This document shows, in pieces, positions 331 to 55,259 of a DNA stretch of 64,000 nt. This DNA is from Bacteroidia bacterium (GTDB lineage: Bacteria > Bacteroidota > Bacteroidia > B-17B0 > Aurantibacillaceae). The position numbers and the translations under genes were made by a program. The stretch covers positions 124,001 to 188,000 of the forward strand of contig JALHRL010000002.1 of assembly GCA_022841465.1 (NCBI GenBank), given 5' to 3'. The notes below the pieces were generated by a model. It saw only the letters and a list, made by a program, of their open reading frames with translations, ran no database searches and was not told where the DNA came from. How positions within the stretch are numbered: the stretch's first letter is position 1; each line of letters begins with the position of its first letter.

Positions 331-2277
331 TTAGGCCACCTTTAAGCCAATCACGCAAACATCATCTACTTGTTCTAAATTTCCTTTCCAGGAATCAAAA
401 TTTTCTCCCAAGGCAATGGTTTGATTTTCGAAAGTAGTGCCCGAAATGTTTAATAAAAATTCATGCAGTTTTTTATACATTAATTTTTTTCCTTTAGGCC
501 CTCCAAATTGATCTGCATAACCATCTGTAAATAAATATAAAGTATCTGCTTTATCCAATTTTATAGAGTGTAGCGTAAAATCTTCTTTACGTTCTCCGTA
601 ACCAACCGGCATTCTATCTCCACTTAATTCTATTAACTGATTTTCTCTAATTAATACCGGGCGATTATTTGCTGCCGAATATGTAATTTCCTTAGTGTCT
701 TTATTTAAACAAAGTAATATTCCATCAAAGCCGTCTTTTTGCCCCTCTTTACTAATGTTGTCAATTAATTTTTGACGAACATAATTAAACACCTCGTTTG
801 GCTTTAAAATATTTTTTTCACCAATTGCTTCATTTAAAAATGATATGCTTAACAAACTCATAAATGCGCCGGGCACGCCATGTCCGGTGCTATCGCAAAC
901 TGCTAAATAAAATAAATTATTTTTTTGTGTAGCCCAATAAAAATCTCCTGAAACAATGTCTTTTGGTTTAAAGTAGATAAAATTATTTGAAATGTTTTCA
1001 CTAATAAATTCTTTATGTGCTAAAATAGTAGTTTGAATACGCTTTGCATACATAATACTATCTAAAATTTCTTTTCGGCTTTGTTCTACTAATTCTTTTT
1101 GTTGCTGCAAAATGATGTTCATTCTCTTTTGCTTCTTTAGATTTTTAAATGAAATATAAGAGAAAACGAAAACAAGTAATAAAATACCTGCAATAAAATA
1201 AAACATAATGCGTTGTGTTTGCAACGATTTTTTTGCAATTTCTTTATCTTGTACTAATAATTTATTCTCTTTTTCTTTAGATTCTGTATCATACTTTGTT
1301 TGCAACTCGTACAATTTATTTCGGCTATCGCCATTATATAATGAGTCTTTTAAATTATTGTACTTTTTATAATAGGCTAAGGCTTGTTCTGCATTTCCTT
1401 TCTTTTCAAACAGCTTAAATATTTGAAGACAAATTGCTTTTTGATTATCCACAGCTTTATCTTCTTCGGCAATTTGAAGCGAACGGAAATAATAATTTAA
1501 AGCAGAATTCAATTTGTCTTTACTAAAATCAATGTTTCCTAAAATTTGATTGATTAAACAAATACCATAACGATTATTAAACCGTTCCATTAGTGGTAAG
1601 GATTTGCGTGCGTAAAAACTGGCCGAATCTAAATTACCGCTTAGGTTATATGTTTCAGCCATGTTCGCATAAACATACGCCGAAAAATTATCTTTATTTG
1701 CATTTTCAAAAACGCCTCTGGAGTAATGAAGTTCGTGCACAGACTCGCTGTATTTCTCCATTTTATTATAAACGCTGCTTAGACCAACGGCTGCTGTTGC
1801 CTTAGCTAGCTTACTATTTGCTTTTTCGGCCTGTTCGCTTGAAAGTGTATAAAATTCTAAGGCTTTTTCAAATTTTTCAAGCCCTAAATAAGTATTGCCA
1901 ATTGAATTGCTAACGGTAGATGCCTTTTTGTAATCTTTTAGCTGATCATAAATTCTTGCAGAAACTAAAAACGATTCTAAAGCTATTTCATAAAATCCTC
2001 GTGCATTATTAAACTCGCCTAAACTTTGATGTGCCATTGCTTCACCTCTGCGAAAATTTATTTTTTTGGCCCAGTCTAAACTTTTCTTACCGCACTCTTC
2101 TGCTTTATTTGGATCTGTTTCTTGGTAATATTTTGCTAATTCGTAATAGTAATAATTCTTTATTGTATCAACGGAAGATTTATTAACAAGATTAATTAAG
2201 GAGTCAGCAAAATTATCTTTTTGCGAAAAAGAGCTAAGCGATAAACAAATGATTAAAAGCGAAAATATTTGTTTCAT
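331..2277 (-). CDS. TPR-containing SpoIIE (PP2C-type) serine phosphatase, membrane-bound
   Basis: 648 aa. Residues 1-19 form a signal peptide ending SFSQ. TPR-like helical repeats fill about 25-320, then a helical stretch, one membrane segment near 355-377, a coiled coil (about 380-410) and a SpoIIE phosphatase domain (about 430-648). The TPR part should therefore be periplasmic and the phosphatase cytoplasmic. Metal-binding motifs are visible: VSGDFYWA, CDSTGHGVPGAF, KDGFDG, FTDGYADQFGG and QVDDVCVIGL. SpoIIE-type enzymes dephosphorylate Ser/Thr on anti-sigma-antagonist or SiaC-like proteins. The gene follows the ten-GAF phosphatase gene by only 9 nt on the same strand, and the two catalytic domains are closely alike, so co-transcription and a shared target are likely. 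The substrate is unknown. Confidence 0.9.
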   Translation of the reverse strand: MKQIFSLLIICLSLSSFSQKDNFADSLINLVNKSSVDTIKNYYYYELAKYYQETDPNKAEECGKKSLDWAKKINFRRGEAMAHQSLGEFNNARGFYEIALESFLVSARIYDQLKDYKKASTVSNSIGNTYLGLEKFEKALEFYTLSSEQAEKANSKLAKATAAVGLSSVYNKMEKYSESVHELHYSRGVFENANKDNFSAYVYANMAETYNLSGNLDSASFYARKSLPLMERFNNRYGICLINQILGNIDFSKDKLNSALNYYFRSLQIAEEDKAVDNQKAICLQIFKLFEKKGNAEQALAYYKKYNNLKDSLYNGDSRNKLYELQTKYDTESKEKENKLLVQDKEIAKKSLQTQRIMFYFIAGILLLVFVFSYISFKNLKKQKRMNIILQQQKELVEQSRKEILDSIMYAKRIQTTILAHKEFISENISNNFIYFKPKDIVSGDFYWATQKNNLFYLAVCDSTGHGVPGAFMSLLSISFLNEAIGEKNILKPNEVFNYVRQKLIDNISKEGQKDGFDGILLCLNKDTKEITYSAANNRPVLIRENQLIELSGDRMPVGYGERKEDFTLHSIKLDKADTLYLFTDGYADQFGGPKGKKLMYKKLHEFLLNISGTTFENQTIALGENFDSWKGNLEQVDDVCVIGLKVA

Positions 2278-2286
2278 TTTTAAAGT

Positions 2287-5200
2287 TTAAAACTTCAGTC
2301 CAATAACACAAACGTCATCAATTTGCTCTAAATTCCCTTTCCACTCATCAAATTTTTGTGTTAAAATTTCTGATTGCTTTAACAAAGATAACTTACTAAT
2401 TGAATAAATCAACTCGTTAAGTTTTTTGTACATGAATTTTTTTCCTTTTGGTCCGCCAAACTGATCGGCGTAGCCATCTGTAAATAAATATAACTGATCG
2501 CCTTTATTTAATTTTACTGTATTTAATGTAAAATCTTGCTGACGTTCGCCATAACCAACCGGCATCCTGTCTGATGATAATTCTACTACACCTTCATTTG
2601 AAATTAATAATGGCGGATTATAGGCTGCTGAATAGTTTACCTCGCCGGTTGTTTTATTAATACAAAGTAGTGTTCCGTCAAAACCATCTTTTTGGCCTTC
2701 TTTACTTATATTTTTTATTAATTTGCTTCTAACGTAGTTAAATACTTCGTTTGGTGCGGTAATGTTTTTTTCGTTAATAGCTTCATTTAAAAACGACATG
2801 TTTAATAAACTCATAAATGCGCCGGGAACGCCATGTCCGGTACTATCGCAAACAGCTAAATATACCAACTCATGTGTTTCTGATTTAACCGAAGTAAACT
2901 TTTGAGTTGCCCAATAAAAATCTCCGCTTACAATATCTTTTGGTTTAAATAAAACAAAACTTTCTTTAAAGGTTTCATTAAATAAATTGGTTTCCGACAT
3001 TAATGCTAATTGAATTTTTTTAGCGTACTGAATACTATCTGTTATATCCTTATTTTTTTCCTCAATAATTGCTTTTTGTTTAAACACTTCATTTGTTCTT
3101 TCTTTTACTTTTTCTTCCAGGTTTTCGTAAAGTGCTGCATTATCGATAGCAATTGCAACCGAGTTCGCTAAATTTCGCAAAATATTTAATTGATACTCTG
3201 AATAAGCATTTTTAGAAAAACTTTGCACAGTTATTACGCCAATTTTTACATCTTTAGAAAAGAGCGGCATATAAATTATGGAAAGAGGAATATCTCCGGC
3301 TACGGGTGCTTTTATATTTTTTATGTACTTATTATACTCGGTATGTAAATCATTAATTAATATTTCTTTCTCGTTTTCAAACGACCAAACAGCAAACCTG
3401 TCTTTGTCTTTCAAGAAAAATTCGAAGTAAGGCATTTTAACCGATCGCTCTATAAATCCTGGGAACTGCAGGCTTTGAGTTTTTTCGTTAAATAATCCTA
3501 TACCAAAGGATTCGGCACTCATTAAATTATTAATATGTTCGTAAGCCATTGAAACAATTGTTTCAACAGAAAGCGACGAAGTAATAACTTTTGAAATTTG
3601 AGCAATTAATTTGGTGTCGTTAAAGTTTTTCTCGAGTTGTTCTTTCTGTTGCGTTACTTCTTTTGTTCTTTCAATAACTCTTTGTTCCATTGTTTCATAA
3701 AGCGAAGCGTTATCAATCGCTATTGCTACATATACCGCTAAATTCTTTAAAATTTGTACATGGTAATCGGTATAGCTATTACGTTTAAAACTTTGCACAG
3801 TTATAACACCCAGCTTTTTATCTTTTAAAACAAGAGGTAAATAAATAATGGATTCAACATTTTGCCCCATTAAAGGTGGTACGTAATTAGAAATATAATG
3901 TTTTATTTCTCTAAGAAAATTATTGATTACTATTTCTCTATTTTGATAGAAACAAACATTGGTTAAACGGTTTACATCTTGTTTTTCATAAACAATATTT
4001 TCAAACTTTTCTGATCCCTCTATATAAGATGGATAAACAATTTGATCTGTTTGGGAATTAAACACACCTATACCAAATCCGGTTGCATCCATTAGATTAT
4101 TAACGTTAGAATAAACTTTGTCAATAATTTCAGAAATAGACAACGTTGATGTGATGGCTTTACCAATTTCACTTAACAATCTGGTGCTTTCATTGGCTCT
4201 CTCAATTTCTTCTTTTTGTCTTACCACTTCTTTAGTACGCTCATTTACCTTTTCTTCTAAATTTTGGTAAAGTGCGGCGTTATCTAATGCAATACCTACT
4301 GAAACTGCCAAGTTTTTAAGTATGTTGTATTGATAATCGCTGTAAGCATTTTTTTCAAAACTTTGAACGGTAATTACCCCTATTGCTTTTTCTTTAGAAT
4401 AAATTGGGAGATATAATATAGAGGTAGAGTCCTTACCGGATATAGGCGCTTGAATTCCTTTTATGTAGTTAACATATTCAATTGTATAATCGTTAATTAC
4501 AATGTCTTTTTCGCCGGTAAAACATTGGGCTGCCAATCTGTTAGGGTCATCTGCACGATATGCAAAATCTTCCATTATTTGATTGTTTTCTACAAAACCT
4601 TTAAACTCTAGGTTGCCACTTTTTTGATCGTACAAGCCAATACCAAAACAAGTAGCATCCATTAATTTATTTACATTTTGATAAACCTTAGAAATAATTG
4701 TTTCTACCGAAAGAGAAGAACTAATGTCTTCTGCAATTTGGCCAAGCAATCGCGTATTTTCGTAAGCAATTCTAATTTCCTCTGTTCTTTCTTCAACACG
4801 CTCTTCTAAATTCTGATATAAACTTGCATTGTCAATTGCACTTGCCATATACACGGCCAAGTTTCTCAAAATATTTAAATGATACTCTTTATATGCATTG
4901 GTATTAAAACTTTGAACAGAAAGCACACCAATATTTCTCCCTTTTAATGAAAGGGGAATGTAAATTACAGACTGAGGATTTTCTCCGGCAACGGGTTTAT
5001 AATTTGCATCTTTTACGTATTTGGGAAATTCTGTTAACCAATCGTTAATCACAAACTCTTTGTTTTCTTTAAAACAAATGGTGGCCACTCTTTCTTTATC
5101 TAAGGAATAAGAAAAGGGCGGTAGTTTATTTCCCTTCTCAATAATGCAGGGGTGATACAAGTCGTTTTCTGCTTCGCGGTAAACACCAATTCCAAAAGCA

Positions 5201-8200
5201 GCAGCATCCATCAATTTGTTTACGTGATCGTAAACCTTTGTAATAATCCCTTCTATTGATAAAGTGCTTGATATTTCTTTTCCTATTTCACTTAATAAAC
5301 GCGTATTTTCATACGTGCGTTCAACTTCTTCTTTTTGCTTTACAACTTCTAAAGTTCTTTCTTTTACTTTCTCTTCTAAATTTTCGTAAAGCGCAGCATT
5401 ATCTAATGCAATACCTATAGAAAGTGCTAAGTTTTTTAAAATATTTACATGGTAATCTGTATACGCGTTTTTATCAAGTGCTTGTACCGATATTACTCCA
5501 ATGGTTTCGTTTTTTGAGAACAAGGGTAAATATAAAACCGACATGTTATCATTTCCCTGAACGGGTTTACGTTCAAGTTTAATATACTTTGAATGTTCCG
5601 TTACAAAATCATTAATTACAATTTCTGTATTGTTTTTAAAACAAATGGATGCCAATCTGTTTTGGTCTTTAGTATCAATCGTAAAATAGGGCAATACTTG
5701 TAAATTCTCCATAAAGCCCGAAAACTCAAGATGATCCGTTTTTGTGTTAAAGATTCCTATTCCGAAAGAATCGGCTTTCATTAACTGGTGTATGTTTTTA
5801 TATACGGAAGAAATAATGGTTTCAACGGATAAAGATGAACTTAGTTCTTTAGAAATCTCTCCAATTAATCGGGTATCATCGTAATTTTTTTCTATTTCTT
5901 CTGTTCGCTCACGAACTCTATCTTCCAAATTAGTGTACAACGAAGCGTTATCTATGGCTATTGCAACGTAAACTGCTAAACTCTTTACAATTTGCAAATG
6001 ATATTCTTTATAAGAATTTTGCTTAAAACTTTGTACAGTAATTACTCCAATTTTTTTGTTGTTATGAGTAATGGGCACATAAATAATCGACTCCGGGTTA
6101 TCTCCTTCTTTGGCTTGATAATCTTGTACCTTGTTACTTTTTACAAACTCTTCGCTAAAATTATTAATGATGTAATCATTTTGAGTGGTATAGCACCAAA
6201 CAGCAGGACGATCAACATCTTTTAAACTATAACTGTAAGGCATTAAGTTTTTCTTCCTTTCAATTGTTGCAGGAAAAACTATTTCATTCGATTTTTCGCG
6301 ATACACTCCAATACCAAAACAGGTTGCATCCATTAAGGTATTTATATTACCATAAACTTTATTAATAATTTCATTGATTGAAAAAGTTGCTGAGATATCT
6401 TTGCCTATTTGACTTAAAACTTTTGTATTCTCATACGTTTTTTCAATCTCTTCTTTTTGAAGTACCACTTCTGCCGTACGCTCCTTCACTTTTTCTTCCA
6501 TGGTTTCGTATAGCGCAGCATTATCAAAGGCAATTGCAGTATAAGTTGCTAAATTTTTAAGGATGTCAACATGATAATCAGTATATGCATTTTTACGGAA
6601 TGATTGTACAGTGATAGCTCCTAAAACACGATCTCCCAACGCAATTGGCACCATAACGGCCGATTGTGGTGTATCACCACCTACCAGTGTTGCTTCGGTT
6701 AAATACTTTTTGTAATCAACCATAAAGTCGTGTAAAATAAGTTCTTTTCTATTTTTAATTACCCATGCTGAAAAATTACGTTTAGGATCTGCCGGTAACG
6801 ATTTTCCCTGATGGTCGCGCTTCAGTTTTTCTATTTCATATTTATACTCAATGGTATCTGTGTTTTCATTATAAACTCTAACACCAAAGGATTCAGCATC
6901 CATTAACTTATAAATATATTTATGAAGGCGTTCAAATACATCTTCAAAATTTAGAGTTGAAGTAATATGTTGGCCTATTTCACTTAATAAACGATTATTT
7001 TGGTAAGCTGTATCAATTTCCTTTGTTCTTTCCTTTACACGCTCTTCCATGCCGGTATACAAACCTGCATTATCAATGGCAATAGCAATATAAACAGCTA
7101 AACTTCGAAGCATTTCTACCTCGTAAGATTTATAAGCATTCTTTTTAAAACTTTGTACGGTAATTACTCCTAAAACTTTTTCTTTTAATTTTAAGGGCAG
7201 GTATATAATAGATTCAACCACTTTGCCCTGTAAAGGTGCCTGCACATAACCAACATACTGCTCTATTTCGTTTTTGAAATCATTAATAATGATGTCTTGT
7301 TTACGAGTATAACATATACTCGCAAGCTTATCGGGTTCGTTAATTTCATAACTTACCGTATCATATCTTTCATCCCCTTCTATGTATAATGGAAATTCAA
7401 TTTTTTTTGTTTCAGTATTCACAACTCCAATACCAAAACCTGAAGCATCCATTAAATTGTTTACACTTGAATAAACATTGTTTACAATATCTTTTACCGA
7501 AAGTAAAGATGTAATTTCGTTTCCAATTTCACTTAATAATTTTGTGTTTTGATAGGTTTTTTCAACTTCTTCTTTTTGTTTAACAACTTCCAAAGTTCTT
7601 TTCTGAACTTTTTCTTCCAATAATTCAAATAGATTGGCGTTTTCTAAAGCAATTGCGGTATAAGTGGCTAGTGTTTTTAAAATATCGAGGTGATAATCTG
7701 TATACGCATTCTTCTCAAAACTTTGTACAGTTATACAACCCAAAACTCTATCATTAATTAATATGGGACTAAAAATAAGCGAGTGCGGCATATCGCCGGT
7801 AACTACAATTATTTTATTGGTGTACTTTTTATACTCTTTTTCATTATCATTTATAAAAATCTCTTTTTTATTGGTAACACACCAAACAGAGTAATTGTCT
7901 TTGTCCTCCATCGAAACCTCTATGGGTGCATTTCTTACTCCTTTTTCTATTCCGTATTTATATTCAATTACATTACGTTCACGGTCGAATAATCGTACAC
8001 CAAAAAATCCGGCATCCATTAATCCGGACACATAGGTATTCAGCTTAGAAAATATTTCTTCAAAATTAATGGCAGAAGTAATTTGTTGGCCTAGTTCGCT
8101 TAATAATTTATTATTTTGATAGGCTTTTTCTATTTCCTCTTTTCGTGAAACAACTTCTGCTGTACGCGATTCTATAATTTTTTCTTGCTCTAAATACAAC

Positions 8201-9780
8201 TTTGCATTATCTAGTGCAATAGCTGTGTAAGAGGCAAGGTTTCTAAGAATATTTACATGATAATTATTGTAAGCATTTTTAGAAAAACTTTGCACAGTAA
8301 TTACCCCTACTGTTACTTCTTTTACCACCAAAGGAAGATAAACAACAGATAGAGCAATTTTTCCGAATGTTGGCACTAGTTTTTTAGAAACATACTTTTT
8401 TATGTCTTCATCAACATCATTCATTACAATTTCGGTTGCATTAGAAAAACAGATGGTTGCAAGTTTTTCCTTATCACTTAAATCATATGTAATGTTGTTA
8501 AACTTTTCTCCTCCCTCAATAAATAAAGGGAATACAATTTGGTTGTTTTCACCATTATATAAGCCCACACCAAAACCGGCAGCATCCATTAATTTATTTA
8601 CGCTATCATAAACCGTTTCTGCAATTGCGCTTACATTTAATTGCGAAATAATTTTCTGGCCAATTTCTCCAAGTAATACTAAATTTTCAGAATAATTCTC
8701 AAGCTCTTTTGCTCTTTGTTCTAAAGTTACTTTTTCGTTTTGGGATTGCAACATTTTGTGCTGCATTTCAACACTTCTAACTACCTGAGCCGTTGTTTCT
8801 GTTATTACCTCATCGCGTGTTGCAGAAAACTTTTTGTAATATTCAATTGCCTTTTTATAATCGCCAAGCTTTTCGTAAACAACCGCTAATTTTTCACTGG
8901 CCTTAAAAACACCTTCTTTTGAATTAATAACTTCAGCCAGTTCACTTGATTGATGAAGCAATTGAATACTTTCTTCCAACTCTCCTTTATCAATTAAAAA
9001 AACTCCTTTGTTTAAAAGTGAAATTACTTCGCCGGCCTTAAAACCAATTTCACGTCGTAATTCTAAACTCTTGTCAAAATATTGTATTGCTTCTTTCTCC
9101 TTTTTTAATGCTGCGTATGTTCTACCTAATCCGTCCAATGCAAAAGCCTCTACTTGTTTGTTTCCAAGCTCGGCCGACATAGCTGCGCATTTAAGATAAT
9201 ATTCCAAGGCCTCTTTATAATTCCCTAAATTGTAATGCGCTTCCCCTATTCCATCTAATACTTTTATGTAAATATCTTTGTTGTTGTGTTTCACACACAA
9301 ATTCTGGCTTTCTAAAAGCACTTCTAAGGCTTTGTGATTTTCCTGTATCCCGTAATACACAGTACCCAAGCCGTTTAATCCATCGGCCATTCCCAACTCA
9401 TCGCCAATTTCCTTGCTTATATTGTAGCAATTATTGTAAAATTTAATTGCTGAATCGTAATCGGAAATATATCGGAAGTTTGCACCAACCGAATAATTCG
9501 TTTCAGCTTCATTTTTTTTATCTCCCAATTCAGAAAATAAAGAAATTGCTTCTAAACTATATTTAAGTGCATCTTGGTTTTTTGAAATCCACACATTGGC
9601 AGCACCCAAGGTTTTTAGTGCATGCGCTTTTCCAATTTTATAATTGACTCTTTCAGATAATAATAAAGCTTTTTCACTTAACTCAATTGCTTTAACAGGG
9701 TCTTTTCTATTAAGCAACCAAGCATCGCTATTTAGCAGATTAATTTCTTGAACCTGTATATTGTCAATTACATTTTGCAT
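2287..9780 (-). CDS. Giant cytoplasmic TPR - 10x GAF - SpoIIE phosphatase
   Basis: 2497 aa with no signal peptide or membrane segment. Residues about 1-335 are TPR repeats, followed by a coiled coil to about 365. Ten GAF domains follow, each with an LM(D/K/S)A motif whose Met falls at residues 398, 588, 777, 960, 1150, 1334, 1524, 1707, 1897 and 2087. Most end in a version of GVITVQSF, then a YxxYH segment and an AIAxDNAxLY helix leading into a signalling helix (ERTxEV). The C-terminal SpoIIE domain (about 2240-2497) keeps VSGDFYWA, CDSTGHGVPG, KDGFDG, FTDGYADQFGG and QIDDVCVIGL, so it should be active. GAF domains usually bind small ligands or dimerise; the ligand here is unknown. Repeat subtypes and linker lengths alternate. 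The gene lies 9 nt upstream of a second SpoIIE gene. The architecture is unusually large; the family call is secure, the role is inferred. Confidence 0.93.
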   Translation of the reverse strand: MQNVIDNIQVQEINLLNSDAWLLNRKDPVKAIELSEKALLLSERVNYKIGKAHALKTLGAANVWISKNQDALKYSLEAISLFSELGDKKNEAETNYSVGANFRYISDYDSAIKFYNNCYNISKEIGDELGMADGLNGLGTVYYGIQENHKALEVLLESQNLCVKHNNKDIYIKVLDGIGEAHYNLGNYKEALEYYLKCAAMSAELGNKQVEAFALDGLGRTYAALKKEKEAIQYFDKSLELRREIGFKAGEVISLLNKGVFLIDKGELEESIQLLHQSSELAEVINSKEGVFKASEKLAVVYEKLGDYKKAIEYYKKFSATRDEVITETTAQVVRSVEMQHKMLQSQNEKVTLEQRAKELENYSENLVLLGEIGQKIISQLNVSAIAETVYDSVNKLMDAAGFGVGLYNGENNQIVFPLFIEGGEKFNNITYDLSDKEKLATICFSNATEIVMNDVDEDIKKYVSKKLVPTFGKIALSVVYLPLVVKEVTVGVITVQSFSKNAYNNYHVNILRNLASYTAIALDNAKLYLEQEKIIESRTAEVVSRKEEIEKAYQNNKLLSELGQQITSAINFEEIFSKLNTYVSGLMDAGFFGVRLFDRERNVIEYKYGIEKGVRNAPIEVSMEDKDNYSVWCVTNKKEIFINDNEKEYKKYTNKIIVVTGDMPHSLIFSPILINDRVLGCITVQSFEKNAYTDYHLDILKTLATYTAIALENANLFELLEEKVQKRTLEVVKQKEEVEKTYQNTKLLSEIGNEITSLLSVKDIVNNVYSSVNNLMDASGFGIGVVNTETKKIEFPLYIEGDERYDTVSYEINEPDKLASICYTRKQDIIINDFKNEIEQYVGYVQAPLQGKVVESIIYLPLKLKEKVLGVITVQSFKKNAYKSYEVEMLRSLAVYIAIAIDNAGLYTGMEERVKERTKEIDTAYQNNRLLSEIGQHITSTLNFEDVFERLHKYIYKLMDAESFGVRVYNENTDTIEYKYEIEKLKRDHQGKSLPADPKRNFSAWVIKNRKELILHDFMVDYKKYLTEATLVGGDTPQSAVMVPIALGDRVLGAITVQSFRKNAYTDYHVDILKNLATYTAIAFDNAALYETMEEKVKERTAEVVLQKEEIEKTYENTKVLSQIGKDISATFSINEIINKVYGNINTLMDATCFGIGVYREKSNEIVFPATIERKKNLMPYSYSLKDVDRPAVWCYTTQNDYIINNFSEEFVKSNKVQDYQAKEGDNPESIIYVPITHNNKKIGVITVQSFKQNSYKEYHLQIVKSLAVYVAIAIDNASLYTNLEDRVRERTEEIEKNYDDTRLIGEISKELSSSLSVETIISSVYKNIHQLMKADSFGIGIFNTKTDHLEFSGFMENLQVLPYFTIDTKDQNRLASICFKNNTEIVINDFVTEHSKYIKLERKPVQGNDNMSVLYLPLFSKNETIGVISVQALDKNAYTDYHVNILKNLALSIGIALDNAALYENLEEKVKERTLEVVKQKEEVERTYENTRLLSEIGKEISSTLSIEGIITKVYDHVNKLMDAAAFGIGVYREAENDLYHPCIIEKGNKLPPFSYSLDKERVATICFKENKEFVINDWLTEFPKYVKDANYKPVAGENPQSVIYIPLSLKGRNIGVLSVQSFNTNAYKEYHLNILRNLAVYMASAIDNASLYQNLEERVEERTEEIRIAYENTRLLGQIAEDISSSLSVETIISKVYQNVNKLMDATCFGIGLYDQKSGNLEFKGFVENNQIMEDFAYRADDPNRLAAQCFTGEKDIVINDYTIEYVNYIKGIQAPISGKDSTSILYLPIYSKEKAIGVITVQSFEKNAYSDYQYNILKNLAVSVGIALDNAALYQNLEEKVNERTKEVVRQKEEIERANESTRLLSEIGKAITSTLSISEIIDKVYSNVNNLMDATGFGIGVFNSQTDQIVYPSYIEGSEKFENIVYEKQDVNRLTNVCFYQNREIVINNFLREIKHYISNYVPPLMGQNVESIIYLPLVLKDKKLGVITVQSFKRNSYTDYHVQILKNLAVYVAIAIDNASLYETMEQRVIERTKEVTQQKEQLEKNFNDTKLIAQISKVITSSLSVETIVSMAYEHINNLMSAESFGIGLFNEKTQSLQFPGFIERSVKMPYFEFFLKDKDRFAVWSFENEKEILINDLHTEYNKYIKNIKAPVAGDIPLSIIYMPLFSKDVKIGVITVQSFSKNAYSEYQLNILRNLANSVAIAIDNAALYENLEEKVKERTNEVFKQKAIIEEKNKDITDSIQYAKKIQLALMSETNLFNETFKESFVLFKPKDIVSGDFYWATQKFTSVKSETHELVYLAVCDSTGHGVPGAFMSLLNMSFLNEAINEKNITAPNEVFNYVRSKLIKNISKEGQKDGFDGTLLCINKTTGEVNYSAAYNPPLLISNEGVVELSSDRMPVGYGERQQDFTLNTVKLNKGDQLYLFTDGYADQFGGPKGKKFMYKKLNELIYSISKLSLLKQSEILTQKFDEWKGNLEQIDDVCVIGLKF
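3090..8690 (-). repeat. Ten in-frame GAF-linker repeats of about 550 or 570 bp
   Basis: The coding sequence is a tandem array. Distances between equivalent Met codons are 190, 189, 183, 190, 184, 190, 183, 190 and 190 codons. The shorter steps coincide with linkers that lack seven residues between ERTxEI and the next xAYxN. By sequence the units fall into subtypes in the order A B A B C D C D A D, which suggests duplication of pairs. The repeats are diverged, so present-day slippage is less likely than old duplication. Confidence 0.85.
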
Positions 9781-9991
9781 TCAACTTAACAAGGTAAGAA
9801 AAATTTTATTGGAATTGAAATGTCAAATACAGTGTAATTATTTGATAATCTGCGCTTTACAATGCTTGTTTTTTAAATTTACGTTTTAACGGGTTATAAC
9901 ATTGTTTAAATGCTAAACGGAATTAGAATAAAATAAAAAAACTCTGCAGTAAATTAAATTACAAACAGAAATTTTTAATATAAAAACAATG
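9781..9991. other. Non-coding gap upstream of the ten-GAF phosphatase gene
   Basis: About 210 nt of AT-rich DNA between the 44-aa ORF and the giant phosphatase start. It should hold the promoter of the phosphatase pair, but I could not find a TAnnTTTG box with a correctly spaced upstream TTTG. No hairpin with a T-run was seen after the 44-aa ORF. Confidence 0.4.
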
Positions 9992-10126
9992 TTAGTTTTT
10001 TGGTTTTAAGAAAGTAAAAAACGAAAACAAGCCAAATAAACCATATAGCCCGGGCATCTCGTAAGCAAAGCCCAAACAGCCCAAAAACCCTAAGAACCCT
10101 AAGTATCCGAGATGTTTTGTTTTCAT
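9992..10126 (-). CDS. Small glycine-rich hydrophobic protein (44 aa)
   Basis: An ORF of 44 codons starts at an ATG one nucleotide after the gcvP stop, on the same strand. It begins MKTKHLGYLGFLGFLGC, continues LGFAYEMPGLYGLFGLF, and ends in a basic tail (LKPKN). Glycines recur every third residue in the first half (LGxLGxLG), a pattern seen in small membrane peptides and in the N-terminal part of DUF3796-type proteins. The tight coupling to gcvP, the charged N-terminus and the patterned glycines argue that it is translated. An untranslated low-complexity stretch cannot be excluded. Function unknown; a membrane-embedded glycine-zipper peptide is the best guess. Confidence 0.5.
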   Translation of the reverse strand: MKTKHLGYLGFLGFLGCLGFAYEMPGLYGLFGLFSFFTFLKPKN

Positions 10127-10127
10127 T

Positions 10128-12986
10128 TTATGCAACAACGTTTTCTTCCATATACGCTTCTATTGGCGCACAAGAACAAACCAAATTTCTATCGCCATAA
10201 GCATTATCTACTCTTGCAACGCTTGGCCAAAATTTATTTGCTTTTACCCACTTTAAAGGATAAACTGCTTTTTCGCGGCTATAAGGTTTATCGTAAGAAT
10301 CAGAAATAATTAATTTAGCAGTATGCGGTGCGTTTTTAATAACGTTATTTACTTTATCTGCTTTTCCATCAATTATTTCTTGAATTTCCTTTCTTATTTC
10401 AATCATTGCATCGCAAAAACGATCTAACTCTTCTTTGCTTTCACTTTCGGTTGGCTCAACCATTAGCGTATTAACTACAGGAAACGCAACGGTTGGCGCA
10501 TGAAATCCATAATCCATTAAACGTTTCGCCATATCAGCAACCTCAACACCACTTGCCATTTTAAACTCGTTGCAATCTAAAATCATTTCGTGTGCACAAC
10601 GTCCTTTAGAGCCCGTGTATAAAATTTTGTAATGATCTTTTAAAACTTCTTTCATGTAATTGGCATTTAAAATTGCAATTTCTGTTGCTGCTTTTAGGCC
10701 ATCGCTACCTAGCATTTTAATATACCCATAACTAATTAATAAAATTAAAGCGCTGCCAAAAGGTGCCGAACTTACAGCGTGAATTCCTTTTTCACTTCCT
10801 GTATTTACAATGGTGTGTGATGGTAAATAAGGTGCCAATTTTTCTACTACACCAATTGGTCCCATACCGGGGCCACCACCACCATGTGGAATAGCAAATG
10901 TTTTATGCAAGTTTAAATGACAAACATCGGCGCCAATATTACCGGGAGAGGTTAATCCAACTTGCGCATTCATGTTTGCGCCATCCATATAAACTAAGCC
11001 ACCATTATCGTGTATTACTTTTGTAATTTCAGTAATTCCTTCTTCATATACACCATGAGTACTTGGGTAAGTAATCATGATGCAACTTAATTTTTCTTTA
11101 TGTTGTTCTGCTTTTGCTTTTAAATCATTAATATCTACGTTTCCTTTATCATCGCACTTTACAACAACAATATCCATACCGGCCATTGCCGCACTTGCAG
11201 GATTTGTACCATGCGCAGATTGTGGAATTAAAGCAACATTACGATTTGCACCACCGTTTGCAATATGATATTGACGAATAACCATTAAACCTGCATATTC
11301 TCCTTGCGCACCTGAGTTAGGTTGAAAACTCATTTTAGCAAAACCTGTAATATTACTAAGGTCTTTGTCTAATGTTTCAATTAACTCTGCATAACCTGCC
11401 GCCTGATTTACCGGCACAAAAGGATGAATGTTTGCAAACTCGGGCCATGTTAATGGAATTAGTTCAGATGCCGCATTTAACTTCATGGTACACGATCCTA
11501 ATGAAATCATAGAATGTACAAGCGATAAATCTTTGTTTTCCAATCGCTTTATATAGCGCATCATTTCGCTTTCGCTGTGATACGAATTAAAAATTGGGTG
11601 CGTTAAATATTCTGATTTACGATTTAAAACTGAAGCTTTAATTAATTCTGATTTTACAGGAGCAGTAATTGCTTTTGCACCAAAAACAGAAAGTATATCG
11701 TTAATATCGTTAAGTTCTATTGTTTGATCTAAAGAAATAGCCACTTGTTTATCATCTACATAACGGAAATTTATTTCTTTGCTTTCTGCTGCACCAATAA
11801 TTTTTTTTGCGTCACATGCAACTACAATGGTATCAAAATAGATTTTGGTGTTTATACTTAAACCCGCTTTCTTTAATTCTTCTGCAATTGTAAAAGTGGC
11901 ATTATGTACGCCCTGCGCAATTGCTTTTATTCCCTCTTTACCGTGATACACCGCATACATACTCGCCATAATGGCCAATAGCGCCTGCGCTGTACAAATG
12001 TTAGAAGTTGCTTTATCACGTTTAATATGTTGTTCGCGCGTTTGCAAAGCCATGCGTAAAGCCTGATTTCCTTCTGCATCAACACTTACACCAATAATAC
12101 GGCCGGGTATTAAACGTTTGTAATCTTCTTTACATGTAAAAAATGCAGCGTGCGGACCACCATAGCCTAAGGGAACACCAAAACGTTGCGAGTTACCATA
12201 AACTACATCGGCTCCCCACTCGCCCGGAGGTGTTAGTAAAGCCAATGCTAACAAATCAGAACCCACTGCTACTTGTATTTCAAGTGATTTACATTTTTCA
12301 ATATACTTACTATAATCAACAGCTTCTCCATTAATGTCTGGGTACTGAATAACAGAACCAAAATAACTTGCATCCAAATTTGTTGTATTCAAGTCGCCAA
12401 CTACCACTTCAATTCCAACCGGATTAGAGCGAGTTTTAATAACATCTATTACTTGTGGGAATAGGGTATTGCTTAAAAATAATTTATTGGCGTTGTTTTT
12501 TTGTTTTTCTCTGCTTCGGTTGCTGTAAAACATAAATACTGCTTCTGCAGCGGCTGTTGCTTCATCTAACAAACTTGCATTGGCAATGGGCATGGCTGTT
12601 AAATCCATCACCATTGTTTGAAAATTTAAAATTGCTTCTAACCTTCCTTGCGCAATTTCTGCCTGATAGGGGGTGTAAGCAGTATACCATCCCGGATTTT
12701 CTAAAATATTCCGTTGAATAACAGCTGGTAAAATGGTATTGTAATATCCTAAACCAATATAACTGCGAAACACTTTGTTTTTCTTACCAAGCACCCTTAA
12801 ATGTTTGTGGTATTGAAACTCGCTTAATGCAGCGCCTACTTTCAAGGGCTCTTTTAATCGAATGTTTTCCGGCACGGTTTGACTAATTAATTCGTCAACA
12901 CTTGAAACGCCTATTTTTTTAAGCATTAGTTTAACTTCTTGTTCGCGCGGACCGTTGTGGCGTGATACAAATGTGTCAGTTGTCAT
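10128..12986 (-). CDS. gcvP: Glycine dehydrogenase (decarboxylating), P protein
   Basis: 952 aa, the usual length of the single-chain P protein. It catalyses PLP-dependent decarboxylation of glycine and transfers the aminomethyl group to the lipoyl arm of the H protein in the cytoplasmic glycine cleavage system. The PLP-lysine region NLHKTFAIPHGGGGPG lies near residue 690. The N-terminal half carries the typical SRHNGP, LGYYNT and YTPYQAEIAQGR segments. The C-terminal NLVCSCAPIEAYM also matches the family. gcvH and gcvT are not in this window, which is common in Bacteroidota. The upstream gap holds a TATATTTG -7-type box and three phased 11-bp repeats, and a 44-aa ORF follows 1 nt after the stop. 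Confidence 0.97.
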   Translation of the reverse strand: MTTDTFVSRHNGPREQEVKLMLKKIGVSSVDELISQTVPENIRLKEPLKVGAALSEFQYHKHLRVLGKKNKVFRSYIGLGYYNTILPAVIQRNILENPGWYTAYTPYQAEIAQGRLEAILNFQTMVMDLTAMPIANASLLDEATAAAEAVFMFYSNRSREKQKNNANKLFLSNTLFPQVIDVIKTRSNPVGIEVVVGDLNTTNLDASYFGSVIQYPDINGEAVDYSKYIEKCKSLEIQVAVGSDLLALALLTPPGEWGADVVYGNSQRFGVPLGYGGPHAAFFTCKEDYKRLIPGRIIGVSVDAEGNQALRMALQTREQHIKRDKATSNICTAQALLAIMASMYAVYHGKEGIKAIAQGVHNATFTIAEELKKAGLSINTKIYFDTIVVACDAKKIIGAAESKEINFRYVDDKQVAISLDQTIELNDINDILSVFGAKAITAPVKSELIKASVLNRKSEYLTHPIFNSYHSESEMMRYIKRLENKDLSLVHSMISLGSCTMKLNAASELIPLTWPEFANIHPFVPVNQAAGYAELIETLDKDLSNITGFAKMSFQPNSGAQGEYAGLMVIRQYHIANGGANRNVALIPQSAHGTNPASAAMAGMDIVVVKCDDKGNVDINDLKAKAEQHKEKLSCIMITYPSTHGVYEEGITEITKVIHDNGGLVYMDGANMNAQVGLTSPGNIGADVCHLNLHKTFAIPHGGGGPGMGPIGVVEKLAPYLPSHTIVNTGSEKGIHAVSSAPFGSALILLISYGYIKMLGSDGLKAATEIAILNANYMKEVLKDHYKILYTGSKGRCAHEMILDCNEFKMASGVEVADMAKRLMDYGFHAPTVAFPVVNTLMVEPTESESKEELDRFCDAMIEIRKEIQEIIDGKADKVNNVIKNAPHTAKLIISDSYDKPYSREKAVYPLKWVKANKFWPSVARVDNAYGDRNLVCSCAPIEAYMEENVVA

Positions 12987-13013
12987 ATTATTTGGAGGTG
13001 TTAAATTGGATTA

Positions 13014-13021
13014 CAAATATA
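13014..13021 (-). promoter_or_regulatory. Candidate Bacteroidota -7 box for gcvP
   Basis: On the minus strand this reads TATATTTG, an exact match to the TAnnTTTG element used by the main Bacteroidota sigma factor, 27 nt upstream of the gcvP ATG. No clear -33 TTTG is found at the usual spacing, so an activator may be needed. The match could be chance in AT-rich DNA. Confidence 0.4.
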
Positions 13022-13047
13022 GCGATTTTAAAGGTTTTTAAAAGAGG

Positions 13048-13080
13048 AAAATCGGTTGAAAATCGGTTCAAAAGCGGTTG
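13048..13080. repeat. Three tandem 11-bp repeats upstream of the gcvP promoter
   Basis: On the plus strand the units are AAAATCGGTTG, AAAATCGGTTC and AAAAGCGGTTG, back to back with one or two mismatches. The 11-bp period is close to one DNA turn, so the sites face the same side of the helix. They lie 27-59 nt upstream of the candidate -7 box of gcvP, where an activator array could sit. Confidence 0.55.
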
Positions 13081-13312
13081 ATAACTAGGCTTTGGTTGAA
13101 TTAAAATTTTACTCTGATTATGCATTCCATTGTTTAACTAAACCTATAAAATAAAGAATTGTTTTGCTTAAAATATGTTAATTGCAATTCTAATTGAGTA
13201 AAGAAATAGATAGCCTTAAATACAATTTATACTTTTAAATGAACCCTAATTAATTTGGAGTGTATCAATCTATACACGTACGTTGTTTTTTCATGTTATC
13301 CGTTAATAATAT

Positions 13313-13906
13313 ATGCATGAGCATTTGAGTAAGTTTAAAGTTTATACCGACGAAGAGCTCATGCATTTTATTATTAATGGTGAAGAGGAGGCTTTTAAAG
13401 AATTATATAACAGATACTGTAAAAATTTATACATGTACTTTACAAAAATGCTTAACTACAATAAAACTTTAGCAGAAGATGCGCTGCAGGATTTGTTTTT
13501 GAAAGTTGCAGAAGCTCCCGATAAATTTGATAATTCACGATCATTTAAAACCTGGATTTATACCATTGCATCCAATTATTGCAAAAACTTTTATCGCCAT
13601 AATTCTATTGTAAATAATAAAACCGAAGAAATTAAATATTTAAGTACTGATATTAACGAAAATGAATTTGTAAAACACGCTTCGAAATTAGACGCCAAAG
13701 AAATAGGTGAGGCTATAGAAAATAGTTTAAACGAATTGCCGATTGAAAAAAAAGAAGCATTTATATTAAAGTATCAAGAAGAAAAATCGCTGGAAGAAAT
13801 ATCCATAATACAAGAATGCTCTATAGGCACGGTAAAATCAAGATTACACTATGCCATTAAAATATTAGAAGAAAAATTAAAACACTATCATCCTAACCAT
13901 ATATAA
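13313..13906 (+). CDS. ECF-type RNA polymerase sigma factor
   Basis: 197 aa. Region 2 (about 14-90) shows DEELMHFIINGEEEAFKELY, AEDALQDLFLKVAE and the WIYTIASNYCKNFYR segment. Region 4 (about 140-190) shows LPIEKKEAFILKYQEEKSLEE followed by the helix-turn-helix core CSIGTVKSRLHYA. This two-domain layout without region 3 is the ECF group, which directs RNA polymerase to envelope-stress or transport promoters under control of an anti-sigma partner. The next gene begins 1 nt after its stop and encodes a one-TM protein that may be that partner. The ATG at 13313 gives a standard N-terminus. Confidence 0.92.
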   Translation: MHEHLSKFKVYTDEELMHFIINGEEEAFKELYNRYCKNLYMYFTKMLNYNKTLAEDALQDLFLKVAEAPDKFDNSRSFKTWIYTIASNYCKNFYRHNSIVNNKTEEIKYLSTDINENEFVKHASKLDAKEIGEAIENSLNELPIEKKEAFILKYQEEKSLEEISIIQECSIGTVKSRLHYAIKILEEKLKHYHPNHI

Positions 13907-24082: not shown

Positions 24083-24658
24083 TTGAGCGCTATTGTAAAT
24101 AAAGAAGCTGAATTTTTTGATCTTCATTTTACAGATTCTGTAAAAGAAATTAATGCGTCGGGCAGTTTAATTATTGCTTATGATGGCGTGTTAAATACCG
24201 AAACCATTAGTAAGCTGGAAACAGAAATTGAATCTAAAATTATTGAATTAAGTGTACCTAAGGCTGCGCTTAAGAAAATATTTTTTATTTGCGTAGAATC
24301 TTTACAAAACATGCTCATTCATGGGCATAGAGATTTAAACGGTTCACAACACAATTATTTTTTAGTTTATAAAAAGGGTACACAAATTATTATTGCAACG
24401 GCCAATTTAATAAGCAACAGTGCTATTGAAAAAGTAAACGGCGATTTAAACACAATTAATACATTTGCCGATCCGGCTGATTTAAAAGCTTATTACATCA
24501 ATCATTTAGAAAAAAATGAATTAAGCGAAAAAGGCGGTGCAGGCTTAGGATTTATTACCATTGCTATGAAAAGTGGGAATAAACTAAATTATAAGTTCGA
24601 TAAAATAAGCGATTTACATTCATTATTTAAAATTGAAGCAGCTGTAAACATTGAATAA
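24083..24658 (+). CDS. SiaB-like protein kinase (DUF6272 type)
   Basis: 191 aa from a TTG at 24083; no other in-frame start is close. The residues IFFICVESLQNMLIHGH (about 76-92) are an N-box of a GHKL-type ATPase, and SEKGGAGLGFITIAMKSG (about 151-168) is the glycine-rich ATP lid. This matches SiaB of the Pseudomonas SiaABCD system, a kinase that phosphorylates the partner-switch protein SiaC, opposed by the SpoIIE phosphatase SiaA. No siaC-like gene is adjacent, but three SpoIIE phosphatases lie in the same window. It sits between a deoxynucleoside kinase gene (3 nt) and a glycosyltransferase gene (8-nt overlap). Confidence 0.8.
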   Translation: MSAIVNKEAEFFDLHFTDSVKEINASGSLIIAYDGVLNTETISKLETEIESKIIELSVPKAALKKIFFICVESLQNMLIHGHRDLNGSQHNYFLVYKKGTQIIIATANLISNSAIEKVNGDLNTINTFADPADLKAYYINHLEKNELSEKGGAGLGFITIAMKSGNKLNYKFDKISDLHSLFKIEAAVNIE

Positions 24659-53267: not shown

Positions 53268-55259
53268 ATGGTAAAAAGTTTAAAAACCTGGTTAATAATC
53301 TCTTTCTCTCTTATTATATTAATTTGTTCTATTGCCTTTTATACACATTCATATACTGTAAACAAAACAGAAGAGTTTGAAATATTACTACAGGAATTAA
53401 AAAGGTTTCAAGTTTGTCTTTTAGAAAGCAATAAAATTAAAGAAGATATTTTTGTTACCAGTGTAATTACCAATTCTTTTTATGAAAACTCGGAAACAAA
53501 AGAAGAAATTGCATTTAAAAATAAAATTAATTCTGCTAAAAAATCACTCCAAATAATTCGAAAATCATCAATAGGCAAAAAACTAATTAATGAAGCCTTT
53601 TACAAAAACATAGAAGACTCCTTGAATGCTTACAATGCACTTCAAAAAGAACTCTTTTACCTATTTAGGAAAAAAGGATATAAAGATTATGGTATTGAAG
53701 GCCTAATGAGAGAAAATGCACATGACTTAATTAGTTACAATAACTTTGAAATTAAATACTTTGCGCTAATATTAAGAAGACACGAAAAAGACTTTTTAAT
53801 TAGAAAAGAACGCGAATACATTCAAAAATTCAGCACCGCCATTAAAGACATTATTAACCTTACTCATCAAAATTCACGTTTTTCCATATACGACAAACAA
53901 TATCTCTTCAATCGAATTTATTACTACAACAAGTACTTTAAATTGATAGCAAGAATAGAAAACAAAATTGGCATTAAAGGAAAAAACGGATTACTAAACA
54001 AATCTAAAAACACCTTCGAAAACATTTTTAACGCCTCTGTTTTTATAGAAAATAAATCAAAACTTGAATTTGAAATAAATAAACAATCATTAAAAACTAC
54101 CACCATTATCTTATATATTATAATACTAGGTACTTTAGTGTTGATAATAATAAACTTCACCAACGTTATTAATAAATCAGTTAATTCCATAACAAGCACC
54201 TTTACAAATTACATTAACTCAGGATTTAAATTCAATTCTTTTCAGTTTGAAAAATCAATAATAAAAGAGTTTAATATTATCTATTTGAGTTTTAATGAAA
54301 TGGCACGGGAAATAAATATTTACACGAATTACTTTAAAGAAAAAGTATATGAACGTACAAAAGAAATAAATCAAAAAAAAGACGAAATACTTGTACAACA
54401 AAAAAAAATAGAATTGCAGTATCAATCGCTATTAAACTATTCTAATGAACTAGAATCTCAAAAACTGGAATTAAAGTTAAAAAATGAAGAGCTAAATGAA
54501 AGCTTAAGATACGCTAAAACTATTCAAAGAACCCTTCTTCCAAAGAGTAAACTGCTTAATGAATACTTTTCTGAAAGTTTTATTTTTAGTAAAGCCAAGG
54601 ATGTAATTTCAGGTGATTTTTACTGCATTTTTCCAATAAATAATTCAGAAACTACTAAAATTATAGTTGTGGCTGCAGATTGTACAGGACACGGTGTTCC
54701 GGGTTCTTTAATTAGCATGTTGGGTTTAAATACAATAAATAATATTGTTAAGGTTATAAACATAATTGATCCGGGAGCGCTTATTGAAAAGTTAGATAAA
54801 GAATTCAGTTCGTTTTTAACATCAGGCATAAGAAAAGGCGAAGTTACTGATGGCATGGATATTGCTGCAATACTTTTTAACCCAACAACACTTGAGTTAA
54901 ATTATAGCATTGCCAAATTTACTTGTTTCCTTTATAGAAATAATAAATTCTTAGAATTAAACAGTTCTAAAAAATCTGTAGGCTATAGGTTTTTAGGGAG
55001 TAACGATAAAACCTTTGAAACAAACACTATTATAGCTGAAAAAAACGATTGCCTTTATTTATTATCCGATGGCTATGCCGACCAATTTGGTGGAACAAAC
55101 AATAAAAAATACAAACGAAAAAATATTCAATACCTCATAGAAAAAATTCATCTTCTTCCCATGAACCAACAAAAAGAAATATTTAAAAAAGAATTTAAAA
55201 ACTGGAAAGGAAAAAACAAACAAACAGATGATATAACAATAATTGGTATGAAAATTTAA
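53268..55259 (+). CDS. Membrane-sensor SpoIIE (PP2C-type) phosphatase
   Basis: 663 aa. TM1 is near 8-27, a helical extracytoplasmic sensor with RRHEKDFLIRKE near 165-176 (a motif also seen in chemoreceptor sensor domains) extends to about 275, and TM2 is near 277-298. A HAMP-like and coiled-coil region follows (about 300-410), then the SpoIIE phosphatase (about 415-663) with VISGDFYCIF, AADCTGHGVPG, DGMDIA, LLSDGYADQFGG and QTDDITIIGM. Its catalytic domain is related to those at 331-2277 and 2287-9780 but has a different sensor. It ends 2 nt from a convergent VOC gene. Substrate unknown; a SiaC-like partner protein is plausible. Confidence 0.9.
   Translation: MVKSLKTWLIISFSLIILICSIAFYTHSYTVNKTEEFEILLQELKRFQVCLLESNKIKEDIFVTSVITNSFYENSETKEEIAFKNKINSAKKSLQIIRKSSIGKKLINEAFYKNIEDSLNAYNALQKELFYLFRKKGYKDYGIEGLMRENAHDLISYNNFEIKYFALILRRHEKDFLIRKEREYIQKFSTAIKDIINLTHQNSRFSIYDKQYLFNRIYYYNKYFKLIARIENKIGIKGKNGLLNKSKNTFENIFNASVFIENKSKLEFEINKQSLKTTTIILYIIILGTLVLIIINFTNVINKSVNSITSTFTNYINSGFKFNSFQFEKSIIKEFNIIYLSFNEMAREINIYTNYFKEKVYERTKEINQKKDEILVQQKKIELQYQSLLNYSNELESQKLELKLKNEELNESLRYAKTIQRTLLPKSKLLNEYFSESFIFSKAKDVISGDFYCIFPINNSETTKIIVVAADCTGHGVPGSLISMLGLNTINNIVKVINIIDPGALIEKLDKEFSSFLTSGIRKGEVTDGMDIAAILFNPTTLELNYSIAKFTCFLYRNNKFLELNSSKKSVGYRFLGSNDKTFETNTIIAEKNDCLYLLSDGYADQFGGTNNKKYKRKNIQYLIEKIHLLPMNQQKEIFKKEFKNWKGKNKQTDDITIIGMKI

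Follow-up and report, generated by a model that had tools for sequence, protein, structure and literature searches.

What can a bacterial protein do with ten GAF domains arranged in series ahead of a single phosphatase domain? This question is raised by a gene found in the window, i.e., the whole stretch of 64,000 nucleotides that was analysed, which belongs to a 3.77-Mb draft genome of 125 contigs. The gene (2287-9780, minus strand) is a single open reading frame which encodes 2497 amino acids and contains no internal stop in the translation of the window. Pfam profiles match GAF_2 in 10 stretches (E = 3.4e-130), TPR_12 in 4 and SpoIIE once, at residues 2306-2496, which bears out a previous sequence-only reading in which TPRs, ten GAFs and one SpoIIE domain had been recognised in a protein of this length. 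The ten LM-x-A methionines, which that reading had placed from residue 398 to residue 2087, are recovered at the same positions (398, 588, 777, 960, 1150, 1334, 1524, 1707, 1897 and 2087), with a spacing of 183-190 residues. The ten GAF units are 183-190 aa long and their pairwise protein identity is 37-58%. The gene, its parts and the paralogue which lies next to it are the following:

2287-9780, minus strand: whole gene, TPR - (GAF + S-helix) x10 - SpoIIE phosphatase, 2497 aa (open reading frame and Pfam)
8677-9780, minus strand: TPR region and entry helix, residues 1-368 (Pfam; in the model, a row of helix pairs leading to a 71-residue helix, 308-378)
8107-8676, minus strand: GAF unit 1 and S-helix linker, residues 369-558, odd class (unit alignment, unit tree)
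7540-8106, minus strand: GAF unit 2, residues 559-747, even class (unit alignment, unit tree)
6991-7539, minus strand: GAF unit 3, residues 748-930, odd class, linker shorter by one heptad (unit alignment, unit tree)
6421-6990, minus strand: GAF unit 4, residues 931-1120, even class (unit alignment, unit tree)
5869-6420, minus strand: GAF unit 5, residues 1121-1304, odd class, linker shorter by one heptad (unit alignment, unit tree)
5299-5868, minus strand: GAF unit 6, residues 1305-1494, even class (unit alignment, unit tree)
4750-5298, minus strand: GAF unit 7, residues 1495-1677, odd class, linker shorter by one heptad (unit alignment, unit tree)
4180-4749, minus strand: GAF unit 8, residues 1678-1867, even class (unit alignment, unit tree)
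3610-4179, minus strand: GAF unit 9, residues 1868-2057, odd class (unit alignment, unit tree, model)
3040-3609, minus strand: GAF unit 10, residues 2058-2247, even class, with an S-helix running to the phosphatase (unit alignment, unit tree, model)
2290-2865, minus strand: SpoIIE/PPM phosphatase domain, residues about 2306-2497, SiaA-like (Pfam, fold comparison)
331-2277, minus strand: downstream paralogue P0002, TPR + SpoIIE (a signal-like start and a single membrane helix, both judged by eye)

No membrane helix is apparent in the 2497-aa protein, in keeping with the soluble protein that had been predicted: the highest 19-residue mean (1.84) falls inside a GAF that contains Pro and Gly. The SpoIIE domain had been called intact, and the four motif patterns which we drew up for its acidic motifs are all present; the PF07228 score of 73.4 bits, for a curated cut-off of 25, identifies it as a SpoIIE/PPM phosphatase. 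Its best fold match, and the closest solved phosphatase domain, is SiaA of Pseudomonas aeruginosa (6k4e; Z 27.2, 2.7 Å, 240 aligned residues, 27% identity). The SiaA equivalog profile NF038263 matches the C-terminal part only (profile positions 383-657), with 159.4 bits, well below its cut-off of 700.

An assembly or collapse artefact is unlikely, because the units are too divergent in DNA (at most 64% identity between any two of the ten, in a codon alignment) and because relatives with ten and twelve GAFs occur in other genomes. No repeat family of at least 60 nt exceeds 79% identity to its reference copy; the longest period handled by Tandem Repeats Finder is 500, below the unit length, so that these units are invisible to that tool. 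The relatives in question, from two other genomes, are G033 (ten GAFs, 2502 aa) and G008 (twelve GAFs, 2876 aa), and both arrays were recovered again in the named records JABDBZ010000015 and JAHEYC010000001.

When searched with a profile built from the ten units, 22 of 40 genomes of the genus give a match (E <=1e-15), as do at least 47 of 395 genomes drawn from the class (E <=1e-30, at most eight candidates being scored per genome). The other 18 genomes of the genus have no match to the profile, and the system is therefore dispensable. Proteins were collected from 15 chosen regions, from L031, which is the locus of the window itself, and from 79 distinct named loci that were the best of 214 relatives; the genomes of the named relatives are metagenome-assembled Bacteroidota, according to the record listing. 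Open reading frames that are uncut by a contig end and have a SpoIIE match above 75 bits, with one kept per distinct sequence, give 69 proteins, of which 53 are TPR-headed (match to the TPR part above 100 bits).

The GAF copy number of homologues, which the first reading had proposed as a check, ranges from 2 to 12 among the 53 TPR-headed relatives: 2 (11 proteins), 3 (2), 4 (14), 6 (19), 7 (1), 8 (3), 10 (2) and 12 (1). The count is even in 50 of these 53 proteins, and in 65 of the 69 when the whole SpoIIE set is considered. Ten in series had been called unusual; a special design is not supported, ten being one rung of a ladder, 2-4-6-8-10-12. That ten is conserved can also be rejected, given this range of counts and the different arrangement of the two ten-unit arrays. 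The proteins are related rather than independent, and changes were therefore counted on trees. On the TPR tree, the copy number changed at least 17 times and its parity 2 times; the joined TPR + SpoIIE tree gives 16 copy-number changes but mixes two histories, and the TPR tree is preferred.

The ladder has a counterpart in the history of the units. A tree built from 78 units (11 proteins) puts the 39 even units, without exception, into two clades free of odd units. The tree of the 248 units of the 50 even-count proteins has 4 parity changes, compared to at least 71, and 83 on average, in 200 shuffles; in the larger clades of this tree that were checked, unit 2 of L143 and unit 3 of L069 are placed with the opposite class. 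Since odd- and even-numbered units form separate lineages, the odd-even alternation of the TPR-headed family is old, and arrays change by whole pairs. Between the window protein and G008, matching units share 57-89% identity, and the unit-by-unit comparison indicates that the window protein lacks one pair of G008 (units 3-4, or 2-3), and G033 another (units 8-9). If twelve is the older state, the two ten-GAF arrays would have been reached by separate routes.

The even rule does not extend to the wider GAF family. A late check of 20 further stretches from matched genomes returned 10 proteins already counted or collected and 10 new ones. The two new TPR-headed proteins have six (L174) and two GAFs (L180), but five of the six new TPR-less SpoIIE proteins have three (L168, L170, L172, L173 and L186), the sixth, L169, having four. 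L185, with a weak TPR match, has two GAFs, and L171, in which no SpoIIE domain was found, has four. The even ladder is confined to the TPR-headed family and is not a property of every protein with these GAFs.

Several relatives depart from the common layout. In L133 (positions 9398-13687), six GAFs of the same family are joined by five linkers of 63 residues each, and a histidine-kinase ATPase domain replaces the phosphatase. L071 (2529-8585, genome G027) encodes a 2019-aa SpoIIE protein with two family GAFs, a further GAF match and six PAS stretches. In L068 (1077-8584, genome G029), a second TPR-GAF gene, truncated where the contig ends, begins directly after a seven-GAF gene, and this tandem duplicate may explain the odd GAF count there. 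L143 (149-3862) encodes a divergent two-GAF member, the longest branch among the 53 TPR-headed proteins, with a PAS-like stretch seen by eye after the last GAF and a SiaC gene directly next to it.

A rival explanation of the ladder is that it is a by-product of mutation and ancestry, unequal recombination occurring mostly between the most similar, same-class units with no functional need for pairs; we rate its chances as even, somewhat higher than before the late check. Units of the same parity are indeed more alike than units of different parity in the window protein (48.0 versus 43.6% identity), in G033 (47.9 versus 41.4%) and in G008 (45.1 versus 39.6%). The pairs missing from G033 and from the window protein are out of frame with each other, as recombination between like units predicts, and odd counts do exist, in 3 of the 53 TPR-headed proteins as well as in the three-GAF proteins of the late check. 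Yet these identity differences are small today, and parity changed far less often than copy number on the TPR tree.

The ends of the protein have had another history than its array. The SpoIIE domains of the window protein, G033 and G008 (the trio) are 78-80% identical to each other but only 44-46% identical to their equivalents in the four further array proteins examined, and trees place them with other SpoIIE paralogues, close to P0002 and its counterparts. In its TPR part, the window protein shares 42% identity with G008 and 46% with G033, compared to 46-55% with L063, L084 and L079 and 64% with L077. A GAF1-GAF2 tree with L068 left out recovers the trio as a clade (SH-aLRT 97). In topology tests, whose p values are not clean since the groups were picked after viewing the trees and identities, monophyly of the TPR parts of the trio is rejected (p about 3e-82), as is the grouping of the trio SpoIIE domains with their 17 nearest array relatives (p 0.001; p 2e-75 for 16 relatives, without L084), while one SpoIIE clade for all 24 chosen TPR-GAFn proteins is not (p 0.074). 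Because the TPR and SpoIIE histories differ from that of the array, the TPR head and the SpoIIE tail appear to have been exchanged around it, with relatives or paralogues.

The most regular feature of the family is the length of its linkers, measured by profile mapping between a fixed Asn, which closes each GAF, and the conserved Met of the GAF that follows, in counts that exclude the new proteins of the late check. In the 53 TPR-headed proteins, 205 of 208 inter-GAF linkers have 56 or 63 residues, and the other three (52, 45 and 38) are each 4 short of a multiple of seven. The GAF cores span 124-129 residues in 260 of 261 cases (mode 127, in 153) and 115 in one. The 16 other SpoIIE proteins follow the same rule (30 of 31 linkers, one of 52), as do 12 further proteins that are contig-cut, truncated or have other outputs, the histidine-kinase protein L133 among them (33 of 34 linkers, with one of 62). 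The distance from the last GAF to the phosphatase helix motif is 38 residues in 50 of the 53 proteins and 34 in 2, the motif being missed in 1. The fixed lengths can be partly inherited through homologous recombination rather than selected, but the unit tree requires at least 20 changes of linker length.

These linkers have an ERT signature on a heptad helix, between signalling domains, which identifies them as S-helices; the signature typifies this element (PMC1592074). R and T are present in all ten linkers of the window protein, the full ERT in eight, and both residues are kept in 98-99% of the 248 units. The 2006 description of the S-helix, as far as its accessible text goes, distinguished it from the inter-GAF linkers then known, which are antiparallel in prokaryotes (PMC1592074). 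Heptad-stepped linkers control PadC (PMC9587094) and YF1, whose response depends on a 7n linker length (PMC6798134); most PadC receptors have a linker of the 7n (54%) or the minus 4 (38%) class (PMC9587094). GAFs that are spaced at regular intervals by coiled-coil linkers were already known (PMC6798134).

Modelling the structure of the array had also been suggested, and two fragments were modelled with AlphaFold2 as single chains. TPR-GAF1-GAF2 (mean pLDDT 84.9, pTM 0.48) has unbroken helices at 308-378 and 506-569, and GAF9-GAF10-SpoIIE (mean pLDDT 86.1, pTM 0.47) at 138-200 and 328-393; the linker helices are unbroken over 63-66 residues. The domains are predicted with confidence, and at such pTM values their arrangement is not fixed. 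The closest folds to the GAF pair are tandem GAFs, those of PDE5, PDE2 and PDE6, at a high rmsd of 15-20 Å, which we read as hinge differences.

The 7n linkers, the ERT signature and the unbroken modelled helices all support the long allosteric helical relay that the sequence-only reading had envisaged. The best explanation as a whole, which we hold to be somewhat more probable than not, is a parallel coiled-coil relay of GAFs and S-helices controlling a SiaA-like phosphatase. The protein would be a soluble rod, up to about 95 nm long (ten helices, each of about 63 residues with a rise of 0.15 nm per residue), with its ten GAFs mounted on a nearly continuous chain of α-helices. This chain probably forms a parallel coiled coil with that of a second copy. 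A signal received by the TPR head or by any of the GAFs, some of which may bind ligands, would travel down the helices and alter the pairing or orientation of the two terminal SpoIIE (PPM) phosphatase domains, which would then dephosphorylate a SiaC/STAS-type regulator. The TPR-headed array grows and shrinks by two GAFs, an odd and an even unit, with nearly all linkers kept to whole heptads. In RsbU, a partner orders a short coiled-coil linker and the phosphatases dimerise, which is the activation step, and RsbZ of C. difficile, which has tandem GAFs, is modelled to work in the same way (PMC12143880). The best-supported reading is that this logic is extended here over ten GAF/S-helix steps. 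Several observations speak against the explanation: the antiparallel inter-GAF linkers from which S-helices were distinguished, the three-GAF counts of the TPR-less relatives, a genome in which no SiaC or SiaB gene neighbours the array and GGDEF is not matched, and the 18 genomes of the genus that have no match to the units.

The neighbourhood of the gene bears on the substrate. P0002 is separated from the array gene by 9 bp, and the two are probably co-transcribed; in G008 and G033, the array gene is also followed by a relative of P0002 (74-76% identity). The SpoIIE domains of P0002 and of the ten-GAF protein are 65% identical, a similarity which suggests that they may share a substrate. On the upstream side, a gene at 10128-12986, recognised by eye as what is presumably a glycine dehydrogenase, has relatives, at 78-91% identity, which lie close to the array gene of L062, L076, L077, L078, L079 and L086. 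A gene for an ECF-like sigma factor of the sigma-70 family (13313-13906, plus strand) lies two genes from the array gene, on the opposite strand. The window also contains a SiaB-type (DUF6272) gene (24083-24658, plus strand), between deoxynucleoside kinase and glycosyltransferase genes, and a third SpoIIE protein of 663 aa (53268-55259, plus strand).

No SiaC or SiaB gene adjoins the array gene, although both are present elsewhere in the genome. The whole genome (G000, 3.8 Mb) has 43 SpoIIE, 7 SiaC, 6 SiaB-type and 1 STAS matches, and 12 to HATPase_c_2 (one of them strong, 137 aa long); within the window, neither STAS nor HATPase_c_2 gives a match. Given this ratio of 43 SpoIIE domains to so few partners, many phosphatases may converge on few regulators, a large fan-in. 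SiaC- or STAS-type proteins are the likely substrates, and the SiaC gene that directly follows the L143 array gene is a hint in the same direction. GGDEF proteins are a known SiaC-linked output in Pseudomonas (PMC9239204). A c-di-GMP output of the SiaD kind is rejected here, the genome having zero GGDEF matches.

The array might also integrate several ligands, as the sequence-only reading had proposed, separate GAFs binding separate small molecules and the odd and even classes having different pockets, a possibility to which we give markedly less weight than to the relay. The two classes differ most at unit positions 48-72, 99-104, 167 and 185, the first two of which we take to be the usual pocket region of GAFs. 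There is a precedent in PtxD, which uses seven GAFs, at least six of them with bilin (PMC5812497), but no single pocket or ligand can be assigned from the sequence of this array. The NKFDE motif is the mark of cyclic-nucleotide-binding GAFs; a loose NKFDE pattern finds no match in the window protein, and cyclic-nucleotide GAFs are rejected on this basis.

It is unlikely that the array is a mechanical spacer or ruler, which would keep a partner-bound TPR head far from the phosphatase, with most GAFs free of ligand. A ruler would account for the uniform spacing, the fixed helical register and the missing NKFDE pattern, and the GAF copy number varies freely among relatives. But a spacer needs no intact GAF folds, whereas Glu, Gly, Ser, Pro and Gln positions show conservation in at least 90% of the 248 units, and the 57-89% identity of matching units between the window protein and G008 also argues against it.

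It is improbable, and more so since the late check, that the relay of the TPR-headed family works in functional quanta of one odd-even GAF pair, each step turning or inverting the signal, so that TPR-headed arrays would follow 2-4-6-8-10-12 because even steps deliver the right sign, TPR-less proteins being free to have three, and the array would be a length-independent conductor with swappable ends.

GAF, S-helix, TPR and SpoIIE are already known singly, as is the GAF pair on a phosphatase. RsbZ of C. difficile and the related GSR phosphatases share with the window protein a GAF pair, a helical linker and a SpoIIE/PPM output, but they have one GAF pair, compared to one to six in this family, and the accessible text on them does not mention a TPR head (PMC12143880). 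The S-helix described in 2006 is the same ERT helical linker between signalling domains (PMC1592074), but here it recurs after every GAF, ten times per chain (eight with full ERT, two with R and T). The cyanobacteriochrome PtxD likewise has a long GAF series, but of seven, in a bilin photoreceptor for phototaxis (PMC6696110, PMC5812497); seven is also the highest GAF number found in print, in a literature search which left most subscription journals outside. The linkers of PadC phytochrome-diguanylate cyclases are likewise mostly 7n or minus 4, but the linker studied sits between sensor and cyclase, and the output differs (PMC9587094). Among the titles and abstract openings searched, again with most subscription journals outside, no prior description of SpoIIE proteins with many GAFs was recognised, nor does the literature covered describe the even ladder, a heptad rule kept so strictly over many serial linkers, or the exchange of the ends.

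How far, and through how many domains, a coiled coil carries a conformational signal is an open question. The natural arrays, which have 2 to 12 GAFs and are alike in kind of head, linker rule and output, make range, sign and integration testable through the comparison or trimming of existing proteins. Both the even rule of the TPR-headed proteins and the 7n spacing of the linkers are exact enough to be falsified, and the apparently exchanged input and output ends would illustrate the modular evolution of a signalling protein. The family is a natural test bed for the growth of protein relays.
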